Source of the DNA: Bacillota bacterium
GTDB taxonomy: Bacteria > Bacillota > Bacilli > Alicyclobacillales > SLC66
DNA: 64,000 nucleotides
Direction of reading: 5' to 3'
Assembly (NCBI GenBank): GCA_021821055.1
Contig: JAKACX010000003.1
Location: 36,156-100,155 of the forward strand
A model generated the notes under the pieces. The model was not told the DNA's origin. It saw nothing but the letters and a program-made list of their open reading frames with translations, and did no database searches. The translations under genes and the position numbers were made by a program. Positions 19,276 to 27,022 of the stretch are shown here, one piece after another; positions within the stretch are counted from its first letter, which is position 1, and each line of letters opens with the position of its first letter.

Positions 19276-21024
19276 TCATTGGACCGCCTCGCCGTAGATC
19301 CCCACGCGATTGCGCCCGGCCTGCTTGGAACCCACGTACATCGCCCGGTCCGCGTTACGCAGCAGGCTCTGCGGGCTGTCCGCCATTTCCGGGTACGTCG
19401 CGACGCCGATGCTGGCCGTCACCCGCACCGGGAGCGCCGCCGTGTTTCCCACCGGCGGCACCGAAATCGGCGTCGCCTCCACGGCCCGGCGCAGCCGCTC
19501 CGCAATCTGCACGCCCGTGTCGATCGACGCGCGCGGCAGAATAATCATGAACTCCTCGCCGCCGTAACGGCAGACCACATCCCGGTCGCGCACCTGGTGT
19601 TTGAGGATCTGCGCCACGCGCTGCAACACGGCGTTCCCCACATCGTGGCCGAACGCGTCATTGACCGACTTGAAGAAGTCCAGATCGACCACGAGCAGCG
19701 ACACGGGCGCCCCCGTCTCGTTCGATTCCGCGCACATCTCCTCGAGAGTCTCGACAAAGTAACGATAATTATACACGCCTGTGAGTTGATCCGTATAGGA
19801 CTGCACCCTCGACTGCTGCAGCTTGCGCGCGTTCCACAGTCCGACCGCCGCCTGCCCCGCGAGAATCTGCGTCATCTTCAGGTCGCGCTTGCAAAAACCG
19901 TTACTCTCCCTGTTCGTCATGACCAGAATCCCCAGTCGATGCTCCTGGTACACGATCGGAACGATGAGGATGGACGGACTGCGCATCCACTCGTCGACAG
20001 TCTCCGGTATACCGGTCAGGGAGCGGGCCGTCCGCCGTTGCAGCAACGGACGCCTGTCGCTGAACTTGCGGCCGATCAGGCCCTCTCCGTCCTGGACGCT
20101 CCAGTTGCTCGCGGCCTCCTCCATGCCCGGAGCGTGCGCGCGCACGACGCTCACGCGCAGGACGCCGAGCTCGTCCGGCAGGAAAAGCACGGCGACGGTC
20201 GCCTGGACCAGATTCGGAACGGTGTCCATGAGCCCCGTGACCAACAGGTCGGCGCTCAGATCGCGGTTCAGCTTGATGGACGCGTCGCTGATCGCCGACA
20301 GTTGTTGATTGGCGATCAAGAGATCGGAGTATATCCGAAATCCGATCAGGCCGATCACAAACGCGCCGAACGCCGCCGGGAACCAGTCCGGGCCGTACGC
20401 GTGCAGGACGATGACAAAGACCCAGGCGAGCAGCAGTTCATTGACCGCGGCGATCAGTTCCCAGAGCACTCCCAGGGGCGACAGGCTTCCGCGGGCGCGT
20501 CCAAGCAGGTGCACGAGGCCCCGCGTCATCAGAAAATTCACCGCCGTTCCCGTCACAAAGAAGGCTGTCACCGGCCAGACGACCCGCCCGAGAGGCGTGG
20601 ACCAGTCGTCGGGCATCAGGGTCCCTCCCGCCAGGTGGAACGCCAGCGCGGCCCCCAGAGCCATCAGGGTGTAAACGGCAAAATTCATCAGCACGCGAAA
20701 CCAGCCCAGGTGCCTGCCCATGACCACCTGGCTCGCCATCCACGAAACGAACGCGAGCAGGACGGCCAGCACCACGCCGAACTGAAGGAACAGCGGGATG
20801 ACGACGCTCAGCACCACGCTGGACCACTGCTCGCCGAGACGCACGGGAAACGCCCAGGCGATGAGGAGAAGCAGGAAATAGGCCGCGAGGAGCAACCAGT
20901 GTTCCCCGGTCGTCGGCCACAAGGGCGGCCGCCGGACGGCGCACCAGACGAGCAATACTGCAGCGAGACTGGACAACACGGCCGCGATTGTGAGAAAGCT
21001 CGCGTGGATGCGCTGCGCCGCCAT
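19276..21024 (-). CDS. Membrane-bound diguanylate cyclase (MASE-like, GAF, GGDEF)
   Basis: This 582-residue protein should make cyclic di-GMP from two GTP. The first 230 residues hold about seven membrane segments (for example TIAAVLSSLAAVLLVWCAV and VVLSVVIPLFLQFGVVLAVL). A GAF-like domain follows (about 250-400, with ILIVPIVYQEHRLGILVMTN), then a GGDEF domain (about 415-575) with DQLTGVYNYRYF and an intact active site RYGGEEFMIILPRA. No RxxD inhibitory site is obvious just before the GGEEF. No EAL or HD-GYP domain is attached. A start ATG follows a G-run. The small membrane gene 21043-21483 lies just upstream in the same direction. A c-di-GMP riboswitch is about 4 kb away. Confidence 0.92.
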   Translation of the reverse strand: MAAQRIHASFLTIAAVLSSLAAVLLVWCAVRRPPLWPTTGEHWLLLAAYFLLLLIAWAFPVRLGEQWSSVVLSVVIPLFLQFGVVLAVLLAFVSWMASQVVMGRHLGWFRVLMNFAVYTLMALGAALAFHLAGGTLMPDDWSTPLGRVVWPVTAFFVTGTAVNFLMTRGLVHLLGRARGSLSPLGVLWELIAAVNELLLAWVFVIVLHAYGPDWFPAAFGAFVIGLIGFRIYSDLLIANQQLSAISDASIKLNRDLSADLLVTGLMDTVPNLVQATVAVLFLPDELGVLRVSVVRAHAPGMEEAASNWSVQDGEGLIGRKFSDRRPLLQRRTARSLTGIPETVDEWMRSPSILIVPIVYQEHRLGILVMTNRESNGFCKRDLKMTQILAGQAAVGLWNARKLQQSRVQSYTDQLTGVYNYRYFVETLEEMCAESNETGAPVSLLVVDLDFFKSVNDAFGHDVGNAVLQRVAQILKHQVRDRDVVCRYGGEEFMIILPRASIDTGVQIAERLRRAVEATPISVPPVGNTAALPVRVTASIGVATYPEMADSPQSLLRNADRAMYVGSKQAGRNRVGIYGEAVQ

Positions 21025-23773: not shown

Positions 23774-24499
23774 TCAGCGCCGCCGTTCGCGCGCCTCGTT
23801 CCAAGCGCGCCAGGCAAACAGCGGCAGCGCGAGCTGGCGCTTGAAACGGCGCGGTTCCTTCACGAGGCGGTACAGCCATTCCAGGTGGGCCCGACGCCAC
23901 ACTAGAGGCGCCCGCTTCACCGTGCCCCCCAGGATGTCGATCACGCCGCCGATGCCCATGGCAAGCGGCGCCCCCAGGCTCTCCCTGTGCTCCCGAATGA
24001 ACAGGTCCTGCCGCGGCTGGCCCAGCCCCACGAGCAAGAGGTGCGGCGCGAACGACCGCACAGACTCGACGACCAACGGGATGTCCGCGGCGCCAAAATA
24101 CCCGTTGCGTCCCGCCGCCTGCACGCCCGGATAACGGGCGCGCACTGTCTCGAGCGCCTTTTGCAGGGAATCCTCTGCGGCGCCGAGAAGGAACACCCGC
24201 AAGCCGTGCCGCGCGGCGTATGCCAGCAGTCGTTCCGTCAATTCCGCCCCCGTCACCCGCTCCGGCAACGGCTCACCGTACCAGCGCGACGCAATGACGA
24301 CGCCCACGCCGTCGGCCGTCACAAGATCGGCGGCGGCGGCGGCCGACCGCAAGTCCCCGCGCTGCTGAGCGGCCATGACAAATTCCGGCCCGGCGGTCAA
24401 CACGACCCGGTTCCCATCGCCCTCCATGTAGGCAACGCAGCGCGCGAACGCCTCATCTTCGCTGACGTGGGCGAAATCGATGCCGAGGATCGATACCAT
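23774..24499 (-). CDS. tagA: WecG/TagA/CpsF family glycosyltransferase (GT26)
   Basis: This family transfers N-acetylmannosamine (TagA/TarA) or a related sugar onto undecaprenyl-PP-GlcNAc in wall teichoic acid or exopolysaccharide synthesis. The 241-residue sequence has the family run VLTAGPEFVMAAQQRGDLRS, then LVTADGVGVVIASRWYG, RVFLLGAAEDSLQKALE, the core LLLVGLGQPRQDLFIREHR and the end AMGIGGVIDILGGTVKRAP. The C-terminal basic helix (about 200-241) is the membrane-associating appendage of TagA. No teichoic-acid polymerase genes are nearby. It is preceded by a 450-base leader containing a cyclic-di-GMP riboswitch and a strong promoter, so control by c-di-GMP is likely. Confidence 0.9.
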   Translation of the reverse strand: MVSILGIDFAHVSEDEAFARCVAYMEGDGNRVVLTAGPEFVMAAQQRGDLRSAAAAADLVTADGVGVVIASRWYGEPLPERVTGAELTERLLAYAARHGLRVFLLGAAEDSLQKALETVRARYPGVQAAGRNGYFGAADIPLVVESVRSFAPHLLLVGLGQPRQDLFIREHRESLGAPLAMGIGGVIDILGGTVKRAPLVWRRAHLEWLYRLVKEPRRFKRQLALPLFAWRAWNEARERRR

Positions 24500-24726
24500 T
24501 TACGAATTCACACGCTTTCCATCGTGGAGATGCACTGCCCCAAGCTACAAACAAAGAACCGAACATCCACGGGGGAGTCCGGTCCAGTTTGAAACATCTA
24601 TTGCTTGATAAAAACATATCTCTCAATCTATATATGTCCATCTATAGTCTGCACCCTATGCCCCGAACATACGCTCTGCACTCTAGACACCGCGCACCGC
24701 ATATTTGCTTGCATCGCCACGCTGTG

Positions 24727-24787
24727 GGGAGAAGGGAACGTGGGGGATTAGTATCCTAGGGGGGACTAGGTTCCGTTCCATTCTCCC
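24727..24787 (-). repeat. Long inverted repeat in the tagA leader
   Basis: GGGAGAAGGGAAC (24727-24739) pairs with GTTCCATTCTCCC (24775-24787) with one mismatch; CCTAG (24755-24759) and CTAGG (24766-24770) can form an inner hairpin. It lies about 55 bases downstream of the riboswitch aptamer in the transcript and could be part of its expression platform. No U-tract follows. Confidence 0.55.
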
Positions 24788-24842
24788 TCAGCCGTGACTC
24801 CGAGCGATCCTCTCTCGTGCATCAACCGTCCGTGCGCGACCA

Positions 24843-24945
24843 CTTTCGGCAGCCCGGCCATCGTAGCGGCTTTCGCCCAAGGCGTCACCCACTCGTAGAT
24901 CCGAGGCTTTGCGTCCCTGCCTTTCGGCAGGTTTGCCTTTATCGA
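24843..24945 (-). ncRNA. Cyclic-di-GMP-I (GEMM) riboswitch
   Basis: The minus-strand sequence has the invariant GEMM-I blocks in order. AAAGGCAAACC (at 24930-24940) comes first, then a GCC/GAAA/GGC tetraloop hairpin, GGGACGCAAAGCC (24905-24917), a variable arm with a GGC-GAAA-GCC tetraloop, and CTACGATGGCCGGGCTGCCG ending with GAAAG (24843-24861). These match the P1-P2-P3 aptamer and tetraloop receptor of the class-I c-di-GMP riboswitch. The predicted transcript start is about 12 bases upstream, and the next gene in the same direction is tagA at 24499. The direction of regulation cannot be read from the sequence. A GEMM-Ib (cGAMP) specificity is not excluded. Confidence 0.92.
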
Positions 24946-24963
24946 GAGGCCTCTCTGGTGCCC

Positions 24964-24992
24964 ATTATACGACCTTCGACAACATTTGACAA
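24964..24992 (-). promoter_or_regulatory. Strong sigma-A promoter of the riboswitch-tagA transcript
   Basis: On the minus strand, TTGTCA (24987-24992) and a consensus TATAAT (24964-24969) are separated by 17 bases. The expected start near 24957 lies just before the c-di-GMP aptamer. Confidence 0.82.
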
Positions 24993-25018: not shown

Positions 25019-25996
25019 TCATGGAGTCAACGCCGGGTCAATGAAATCCGTAAAGACAATCGGGTCCGTTTTCGATCCATCGGGATTCTGCGGCGGCGCC
25101 ACATAGCTCTGTCCCGTGGCGTACACCGTACCCTGGGCGTCCTTGACCTGGTACTGGATCTGGAGATTCTGCACGCCCGACACGTCGACCGACACCGCGG
25201 CGGGAGCGGATCCTCCCTGCATCCACGGCGTCTGCGCGAGCGTGACGCCGTCGCCGAGGAAGACGAGGCGCACGGTGCCATTGTAGTTCTTGCTGAGGTC
25301 ATCCACCGCAAACAGGCCCGTGAGTGTGCGGTACCGGCCGCCCAGGTTGTAGTCCAGGCCCGGGATCTTGGACGTCTGGCCGGGCATGATGCCCCATTCC
25401 ACAGTCGACGACCCTGGATACAGTTGGCCAATGACGGTCGCGGGCCACTGGTTGGTCAGCCGGCCGCCCGGGTACAGCGTCGTATTGGCGAAGTCCCCCA
25501 GCAGCGTCGACGGCGTCAGCGCGGTCAGCGCGGTGGCGCCCGCCGGCAGAGAAGATCCGGCAGCGGGCGCAAAGTTTACATTGCCCGCCGTGTCCACCGT
25601 GGTCTTGAGACCGGTCGCCTGCATGTAGGCGGCCGTCGTGGCCGGCACATCGGCGTACGACGTACCGTTCGTCACGCCGCCAGGCAGCGCCGTCCCGTTA
25701 TAGAAGACGCGGAGCGGCTGCGCGGACGGCGGCGCCGTCACCATGACCGCGGCGGGACTGTTCACCCACGCCACGTGCGCCCCGAGGGCGTGGGCAACGG
25801 TACTGATGGGAACATAGACATTGTAGTTGTAGATCATTGGCTGCGCCGTGACCGTGACGGGACGGCCGTTCAGCTGGATGCCAATATTGTCAAATTCGGC
25901 GCGCACCATCTGGACCCCGGTCGACGCGTACGATGCGCCCGCCCACAGCACGGCGCTCGTCGCGACGCCCAGGGCAACGCTCCATTTCGGTTTCAC
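25019..25996 (-). CDS. Secreted protein with copper-amine-oxidase-like stalk and NPCBM-like domain
   Basis: A 325-residue exported protein. Residues 1-25 are a signal peptide (basic start, VALGVATSAVLWAGASYA, cleavage after AYA/YAS). Residues 30-85 form a stalk module of the copper amine oxidase N-terminal type (VYVPISTVAHALGAHVAWVN). The C-terminal half (about 205-325) looks like an NPCBM/NEW2 carbohydrate-binding domain: KIPGLDYNLGGRYRTLTGLF, then VDVSGVQNLQIQYQVK. The GTG at 25996 has GGGAGG eight bases upstream. It is a paralogue of the next gene, 37 bases upstream, and probably in the same operon. A cell-surface glycan-binding role is inferred. Confidence 0.78.
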   Translation of the reverse strand: MKPKWSVALGVATSAVLWAGASYASTGVQMVRAEFDNIGIQLNGRPVTVTAQPMIYNYNVYVPISTVAHALGAHVAWVNSPAAVMVTAPPSAQPLRVFYNGTALPGGVTNGTSYADVPATTAAYMQATGLKTTVDTAGNVNFAPAAGSSLPAGATALTALTPSTLLGDFANTTLYPGGRLTNQWPATVIGQLYPGSSTVEWGIMPGQTSKIPGLDYNLGGRYRTLTGLFAVDDLSKNYNGTVRLVFLGDGVTLAQTPWMQGGSAPAAVSVDVSGVQNLQIQYQVKDAQGTVYATGQSYVAPPQNPDGSKTDPIVFTDFIDPALTP

Positions 25997-26033
25997 ACCA
26001 GACACCTCCCGATGGACCCGCGAAGACGCGCGG

Positions 26034-26984
26034 TCAGTGAACGTTCACATTCGCAAAGTCGATATTGACAGCGTAACCCGCGGGCATGGACTGCCCCATC
26101 GCATACACCTTCGCGCCAATCTTGACGGAAAAGCCGATGGTCAACAACCTGACCCCCGACACATCCACGCTCACCGGCGCCGCCGGTTGGTGCAGGCCCA
26201 TCCAGGGCGACTGGTACAACTGCTTGCCGTTCCCCGATACCGTCAGTTGGACCTGCTCCTTGCCGTCCGACGCGTCGTCAAGCCCAAAATTGCCCGTGAG
26301 TTGCGAGTAGTGGCCCTGCAGATTGTACTCCACGCCAGGCACCTGTGAACCGCCCTTTGTCGAAGACGACCACACCAGGCTGTTCGCGTTCGGATACGGC
26401 ACCCCGTCGATGCGGGGCGCCCCGTCAGCCCAGCCGTAGGTCGGTCCCGCGAGTTGCGGGTGGAGCATCGCGTATGCTCCGTAGTCGCGGACGTCGTAGA
26501 ACGCCTGGATCGGCATGCCTGTCGACGGACCGCGGCCGATGTACGCGACGCGCTGGGCGTAGTTCACGTAGTACGGCTCATTTAGCGCTGTCGCAAGAGC
26601 AAAGGCGGACACATACGGATAGCCGCGGTAGTATGCGGTTTGGGTTCCGTTATACACGGGAAGACCGGCGTAATCCATGTTCCCTCGGCGGATCGTGGCG
26701 GGAGGATTCGCGGTCAGTTCCACCTGGCGTTTGGCGTTGTTCCAGGCGACCGACGCCCCCAGGCCATGAGCCACCGTGCTCACCGGCACGTAGACATTGT
26801 GATTGAAGATAAAGGGCTGCGCCGCTGTGTTGATGGTCGTGCCATTCGTGAGCAGCTTGATGTTGGCATAATGCGCGGCAATCGTCATCATGCCCGTGTT
26901 GGCGTACGTCAGACCGCCGAAACAGAGCGCTCCAATGCCGAGACCGGTTACGTACCCCGACAACGTCCGCTTCCATTTTTTCAT
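26034..26984 (-). CDS. Paralogous secreted stalk/NPCBM-like protein
   Basis: A 316-residue paralogue of the downstream gene. Features are a basic N-terminus MKKWKRTLSGY, a signal peptide ending near TYANTG, a stalk module (VYVPVSTVAHGLGASVAWNN) and a C-terminal NPCBM-like domain (QVPGVEYNLQGHYSQLTGNF; VDVSGVRLLTIGFSVKI). The middle is rich in Tyr (YNGTQTAYYRGYPYV, YVNYAQRVAYIG). ATG at 26984 follows GGAGGG. It has its own upstream promoter candidate at 27023-27051, transcribed away from the cold-shock gene. Both proteins conserve the stalk and the domain but differ in the middle, suggesting duplication followed by divergence of ligand. Confidence 0.78.
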   Translation of the reverse strand: MKKWKRTLSGYVTGLGIGALCFGGLTYANTGMMTIAAHYANIKLLTNGTTINTAAQPFIFNHNVYVPVSTVAHGLGASVAWNNAKRQVELTANPPATIRRGNMDYAGLPVYNGTQTAYYRGYPYVSAFALATALNEPYYVNYAQRVAYIGRGPSTGMPIQAFYDVRDYGAYAMLHPQLAGPTYGWADGAPRIDGVPYPNANSLVWSSSTKGGSQVPGVEYNLQGHYSQLTGNFGLDDASDGKEQVQLTVSGNGKQLYQSPWMGLHQPAAPVSVDVSGVRLLTIGFSVKIGAKVYAMGQSMPAGYAVNIDFANVNVH

Positions 26985-27022
26985 TGCGCCAGTTCCCTCC
27001 TCCGGCCGACAAGTCATGTCCT

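Follow-up and report, generated by a model that had tools for sequence, protein, structure and literature searches.

Genomic context of the tagA leader

The window analyzed here, a stretch of 64,000 nt, contains at 23774-24499 a gene encoding a WecG/TagA/CpsF-family glycosyltransferase of 241 amino acids (tagA), the presumed target of the RNA leader that precedes it; this and all other features of the window described below lie on the minus strand. The product matched PF03808 (Glyco_tran_WecG) with 194.1 bits (cut-off 27.4), in agreement with the family named in an earlier note on this DNA. On the other side of the leader are two genes for secreted Cu_amine_oxidN1-NPCBM proteins (25019-26005 and 26034-27017), recognized by Pfam and synteny, the first of which ends just before the leader promoter. 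An ortholog of the first gene was located upstream of the leader in 15 of the 17 family relatives, and the contig was cut in the other two. These tandem paralogs (25019-27017) accompanied the leader throughout the family wherever the contig permitted.

The general gene order in the family was two secreted Cu_amine_oxidN1-NPCBM genes, leader, LCP (LytR_cpsA_psr), tagA, often a second LCP gene, SASP and metK, except that in genera g5 and g6 the leader was separated from the secreted genes by additional frames. The gene that came first after the leader in most relatives was the LytR-CpsA-Psr glycopolymer transferase and not tagA. Both the window and genus g2 had no LCP gene before tagA, and the window had none behind it either; the two LCP genes detected in its own genome were on other contigs. 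Genus g2 thus also had tagA in first position, with about the same spacing as in the window.

A GAF-GGDEF diguanylate cyclase, with RxxD before GGEEF by reading, is encoded at 19276-21024 (PF00990, 152 bits). This is the GGDEF enzyme to whose vicinity the earlier note had drawn attention, and it is a possible but unproven source of c-di-GMP for the aptamer described below. Its proximity is weak evidence, because c-di-GMP acts globally and the GEMM-I aptamers of this genome number at least seven.

A class-I c-di-GMP aptamer upstream of the wall-polymer operon

Analysis of the whole window with cmscan revealed a single Rfam match, to RF03167 (c-di-GMP-I-GGC) at 24946-24844, with 75.2 bits (gathering score 59 bits) and an E-value of 5e-16. 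The earlier note had proposed a class-I c-di-GMP riboswitch and had made this claim depend on a significant match to RF01051 (GEMM-I); such a match was found at the same site, with 76.2 bits (gathering score 35 bits) and an E-value of 2.9e-15 genome-wide. The conserved GEMM-I blocks, AAAGGCAAACC, a GAAA tetraloop, GGGACGCAAAGCC and GGGCUGCCGA, were all recovered by sequence reading. The residues that we take to be equivalent to G20, A47 and C92 of Vc2, by reading rather than by a Vc2 alignment, are G, A and C, which is as expected if the aptamer binds c-di-GMP rather than cGAMP. Judged from these sequence features, the element is a genuine class-I c-di-GMP aptamer and a member of a known family. 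Outside the core (24844-24946), GGCC (24951-24948) can pair with GGUC (24841-24838) and extend P1 to 24838-24951; this GACC/GGCC...GGUC extension was common to all 11 aptamer-bearing loci.

A GEMM-I aptamer occupied the same slot in 10 of the 17 family relatives (G001, G004, G006, G007, G008, G011, G013, G014, G016 and G017), while the contig of G009 started inside the leader. Together with the window's own genome, synteny of the aptamer and (LCP)-tagA was observed in 11 genomes belonging to six genera. Because this synteny links the aptamer to the LCP/tagA operon, the direct tie to anionic-polymer genes that the earlier note had suggested is reasonable. In the sister family, none of 12 tagA loci had a GEMM-I aptamer within 1.5 kb of tagA. 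Our literature search found no paper joining c-di-GMP riboswitches with LCP genes or with an LCP/tagA wall-polymer operon, and, judging by titles, abstracts and counts, we regard the co-mentions with TagA and teichoic acid as incidental.

The genome-wide set of at least seven RF01051 aptamers includes the one at the tagA locus. Other members (L016, L017, L018 and L019) preceded small secreted-protein, CheY-like and HD-GYP-like frames, as assigned by reading and without profiles, and had no C-loop hairpin of the kind described in the next section, nor was one found at the other GEMM-I loci of this genome. A further aptamer (L020, 10976-11062 of G000:C42, minus strand) was directly before a frame that by eye looked like a GH92-type glycoside hydrolase; the ribosome-binding region of this frame contains a G6 run.

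The aptamer is separated from the tagA start codon by 345 nt. Neither this distance nor the structured RNA within it was part of the earlier note. Judging by position, with a candidate terminator weaker than those of relatives in between, control of tagA by the aptamer appears plausible, and the arrangement is conserved.

A conserved C-loop hairpin between aptamer and operon

The structured RNA is a hairpin at 24715-24796 (inverted repeat I3), which we refer to as the C-loop hairpin. In its outer stem, 24787-24774 pairs with 24740-24727; the inner stem CCUAG/CUAGG (24770-24755) closes a hexaloop UCCCCC (24765-24760), and a second unpaired C-run, CCCCC, is present on the 3' side at 24746-24742. 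The aptamer-bearing loci of the family shared this design: the hairpin was located some 45-75 nt 3' of the aptamer, the outer stem varied in sequence, the inner stem had five pairs, the loop was C-rich (mostly UCCCCC) and a second unpaired C-run followed on the 3' side.

With a covariance model (R1), the hairpin was detected in 15 of the 18 family genomes, once in each and always at the tagA-operon locus, and in none of 41 genomes of the sister family. The window copy scored 57.8 bits and was the only one in its genome; the R1 search found no copies elsewhere in the family genomes, a weak match in G015 (21 bits, on another contig) being judged a chance hit. The exact core CCTAGTCCCCCCTAGGAT occurred in six records of a collection of 85,462 species, all of them Bacillota metagenome bins. 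Comparison with Rfam 15 gave nothing at the gathering score and nothing overlapping the hairpin up to an E-value of 10.

In a sequence-only alignment, both sides had changed in 10 of the 15 stem pairs. None of 500 shuffles matched the observed values on four of five measures (including pairing, double changes and covariation score), and the covariation signal was gone when the stem partners were slid against each other. A wider set of 14 distinct sequences showed double changes in 12 of the 15 pairs, although this alignment was fitted to the model and therefore leans towards it. In these 14 sequences the stems varied, whereas loop positions C33-C36 and second-run positions C51-C53 were invariant. 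These patterns point to a structured RNA with compensatory changes significantly above the shuffled control. To our knowledge, this conserved RNA has apparently not been described so far, and its combination with the aptamer is a new arrangement for a known riboswitch class; no paper linking c-di-GMP riboswitches with a C-rich-loop sRNA was found in the literature search.

Loci with the hairpin and without the aptamer

INDEPENDENCE of the hairpin from the aptamer was observed in G002, G005 and G012, where the promoter was followed by the C-loop hairpin within a few tens of bases and no aptamer was present between them. Sequence reading showed the hairpin directly behind the promoter, which rules out a failure of aptamer detection in these genomes. 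In the TagA tree, the aptamer-less G002 was sister to the aptamer-bearing G008 (97/95 support) and G005/G012 formed a separate branch. Since these branches are separate, the aptamer was gained or lost at least two times while the hairpin stayed. Of the RNA elements at this locus, the C-loop hairpin and not the aptamer is the most constant, and because these three genomes keep it alone, it is more than an appendage of the switch. The unit of G002 consists of promoter, hairpin and T-run, about 105 nt in total. Genus g4 had a promoter and a terminator and neither the aptamer nor the C-loop hairpin; thus, the operon can do without both modules. Three genomes of this genus (G003, G010 and G015; loci L084, L091 and L096) were noticed to have a short leader of another kind, which contains a small hairpin of its own (AGAGCUU...AAGCUUUU).

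Accordingly, the idea of a riboswitch for tagA stands only in part. The real aptamer and the synteny in 11 genomes agree with it; however, it is incomplete, because the C-loop hairpin persists where the aptamer is absent, and an LCP gene comes first in most relatives. The presence of the conserved hairpin even in members without an aptamer indicates that the leader does more than the earlier note saw.

Promoter and Spo0A-box-like motifs

The consensus promoter reported just upstream of the aptamer was also recovered: it is a sigma-A promoter at 24964-24992 with -35 TTGTCA (24992-24987), a 17-nt spacer and -10 TATAAT (24969-24964), matching 11 of 12 consensus positions. Two candidate Spo0A-box-like heptamers with 10-bp spacing lie within it (24975-24991), one overlapping the -35 element (TGTCAAA, 24991-24985) and the other in the spacer (TGTCGAA, 24981-24975). 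The Spo0A box, or 0A box, has TGTCGAA as its core (PMC3485338). All 17 readable family loci had TTGTC-N6-TGTCG plus a -10 element, and the second heptamer was TGTCGAA at 15 and TGTCGTA at 2 of them. Across the 18 genomes, TTGTCN6TGTCGAA matched at 33 sites and its reversed control at 3; 15 of the 33 were the tagA-leader locus.

Elsewhere in the family, this motif was found near fliQ-, GGDEF-, exopolysaccharide-, FlbD- and HAMP/MCP-like frames (L130, L132, L144, L148 and L151). Such placements suggest that one regulator might serve motility, c-di-GMP and wall genes. Control of the leader promoter by Spo0A is a reasonable guess, and we treat it as a guess rather than a result because other matches are close to flagellar, GGDEF and exopolysaccharide frames.

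Alternative pairing and terminators

The 5' strand of the aptamer, ACCUCCCGA, can pair either with the 3' side of P1 or with a downstream strand, UCGGGAGG. The latter pairing was better than dinucleotide shuffles in 7 of the 11 loci (G004, G006, G007, G008, G011, G013 and G016). In the window, the candidate anti-P1 strand is CGAGAG (24812-24817), which is complementary to CUCUCG of the aptamer 5' strand and matches the position of the relatives' strand. Its pairing energy, like that in genus g2, was no better than that of dinucleotide shuffles, and we therefore do not regard an anti-P1 switch as proven there. When the full leader was folded, the minimum-energy structures disagreed among relatives and thus did not reveal the sign of regulation.

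Clear intrinsic terminators were found between the C-loop hairpin and the operon in most relatives. The candidate in the window (24547-24591), a hairpin CAAACUGGACCGGACUCCCCCGUGGAUGUUCGGUUC followed by UUUGUUUGU with a local fold of about -19 kcal/mol, is weaker than these and was not reported by a simple terminator scan. In G013 and G016 the scripted search was empty, and a short T-run behind a GAAGCTGCC...GGCAGCTTC hairpin was visible by eye. A T-run was directly 3' of the C-loop hairpin in G002, G008 and G009, whereas at most loci the terminator was a distinct element farther downstream and the hairpin had no good T-run. By direct reading, the distance from the terminator T-run to the first start codon ranged from about 37 nt (G004) to about 60 nt (G001 and G006). 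Such short gaps leave little or no room for another promoter, and thus the operon mRNA is most simply explained by read-through. The window also has a promoter-like site with 9 of 12 consensus positions upstream of tagA (24640-24613), which could serve tagA on its own.

Proposed mechanism and alternative explanations

Putting together the computed elements, namely aptamer, promoter, synteny, covarying hairpin and the terminators of relatives, we favor, with moderate confidence, the view that the leader is a c-di-GMP-responsive attenuator of a wall-glycopolymer operon that carries the C-loop hairpin as a second conserved element. The conserved sigma-A promoter with its Spo0A-box-like motif would start the leader RNA, and the GEMM-I aptamer would sense c-di-GMP, its 5' strand pairing within P1 or, clearly in 7 of the 11 loci, with the downstream anti-P1 strand. 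The C-loop hairpin would come next, then the intrinsic terminator and (LCP)-tagA(-LCP). By altering the fold, c-di-GMP would change, in one direction or the other, the share of polymerases passing the terminator into tagA, most likely by transcription attenuation. The C-loop hairpin would expose its unpaired C-runs, probably for pairing with G-rich RNA such as a Shine-Dalgarno region, in cis or in trans. The window itself fits this view less well than its relatives do: its anti-P1 pairing is no better than shuffles, its terminator candidate is weak and the LCP gene that follows the leader in most relatives is missing.

These same features could mean that the aptamer does not control tagA here, the RNA stopping before tagA, tagA having its own promoter (for example, 24640-24613) and the leader being a relic after loss of the LCP gene. 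The 345-nt spacing also agrees with this explanation. However, aptamer and hairpin score high in the window with their conserved positions kept, and genus g2 is likewise tagA-first with about equal spacing; we consider it quite unlikely. The locus could also be an ordinary GEMM-I riboswitch whose C-loop hairpin is merely the terminator of the expression platform and has no further role. Because a T-run follows the hairpin in G002, G008 and G009, part of its conservation could indeed reflect terminator function, and in Bc1 of Bacillus thuringiensis a GEMM-I aptamer is known to be followed by two terminators (PMC11218506). On the other hand, a stem and a U-run suffice for a terminator, and an invariant C-rich loop with a second C-run is unneeded; moreover, most loci have a separate terminator and the hairpin persists where the aptamer is absent. 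We therefore regard this explanation as very improbable.

A different product is also conceivable, and we rate it as fairly unlikely: a c-di-GMP-gated sRNA, in which the main product is the terminated transcript of about 100-400 nt, other mRNAs are bound by the C-loops at their G-rich ribosome-binding sites, and the operon is a neighbour or read-through target. The promoter-hairpin-T-run unit of G002 is built like an sRNA gene; G002 (sister of G008) and G005/G012 retain the hairpin although they have no aptamer, and neither unpaired C-run varies, in contrast to the stems. In addition, C-rich sequences of RsaA from Staphylococcus aureus are established to bind Shine-Dalgarno regions (PMC3961350), an analogy which suggests that the C-runs may act by RNA-RNA pairing, in cis or in trans. 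Yet the hairpin is always upstream of the LCP/tagA operon and some genomes hardly fit another operon promoter, which favors a role in cis. A G-run near the start of the first gene (about 5 of 9 genera, compared with 13% of background ORFs) equally fits a cis target. Pairing with the operon's own Shine-Dalgarno region is suggestive at best: G5 runs in only about 5 of 9 genera (the start codon of G002 being uncertain) do not make it a rule, 29 of 216 background ORFs had such a run near the start, and none was present at tagA in the window.

In the attenuator model that we prefer, the terminated leader product is C-loop RNA and may also act as an sRNA. A more far-reaching proposal, which we regard as rather doubtful, is that the hairpin represents a new C-loop regulatory RNA family, which is transcribed from a promoter of the Spo0A type and usually carries a removable c-di-GMP sensor fused to its 5' side, so that c-di-GMP chooses between a trans-acting sRNA and a wall-polymer mRNA.

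Significance and comparison with known systems

Riboswitches for c-di-GMP are usually located in front of genes for motility, adhesins or signalling. A conserved association with LCP/tagA would tie a sessile-lifestyle signal to wall-polymer synthesis and attachment. Furthermore, related genomes that carry this promoter and hairpin either with the sensor or without it represent a natural experiment, by which the combining and separating of riboswitches and small RNAs in evolution become directly testable.

With regard to the protein, the tagA product belongs to the same glycosyltransferase family as TagA of Thermoanaerobacter italicus (PDB 7mpk and 5wb4), with an E-value of 3.7e-42 to 7mpk over nearly the full length; it differs in falling below the NCBIfam TarA equivalog cut-off (175.7 versus 350 bits). 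Compared with the riboswitches of RF01051 and RF03167, the window aptamer is well above both gathering scores and keeps the key binding positions, whereas the putative LCP/tagA wall-polymer target, the extra C-loop hairpin behind the aptamer and the extension of P1 by GACC/GGUC are different here. Bc1 of B. thuringiensis likewise combines a GEMM-I aptamer with a long expression platform and two terminator-like hairpins before the gene; however, it precedes mcpE, and the consulted part of its description mentions neither a C-loop hairpin with invariant C-runs nor aptamer-less versions (PMC11218506). Finally, the C-loop hairpin resembles RsaA (PMC3961350) in having an unpaired C-run able to bind Shine-Dalgarno-like G-runs, and differs from it in having no Rfam match and in usually being located between a c-di-GMP aptamer and a wall-polymer operon.
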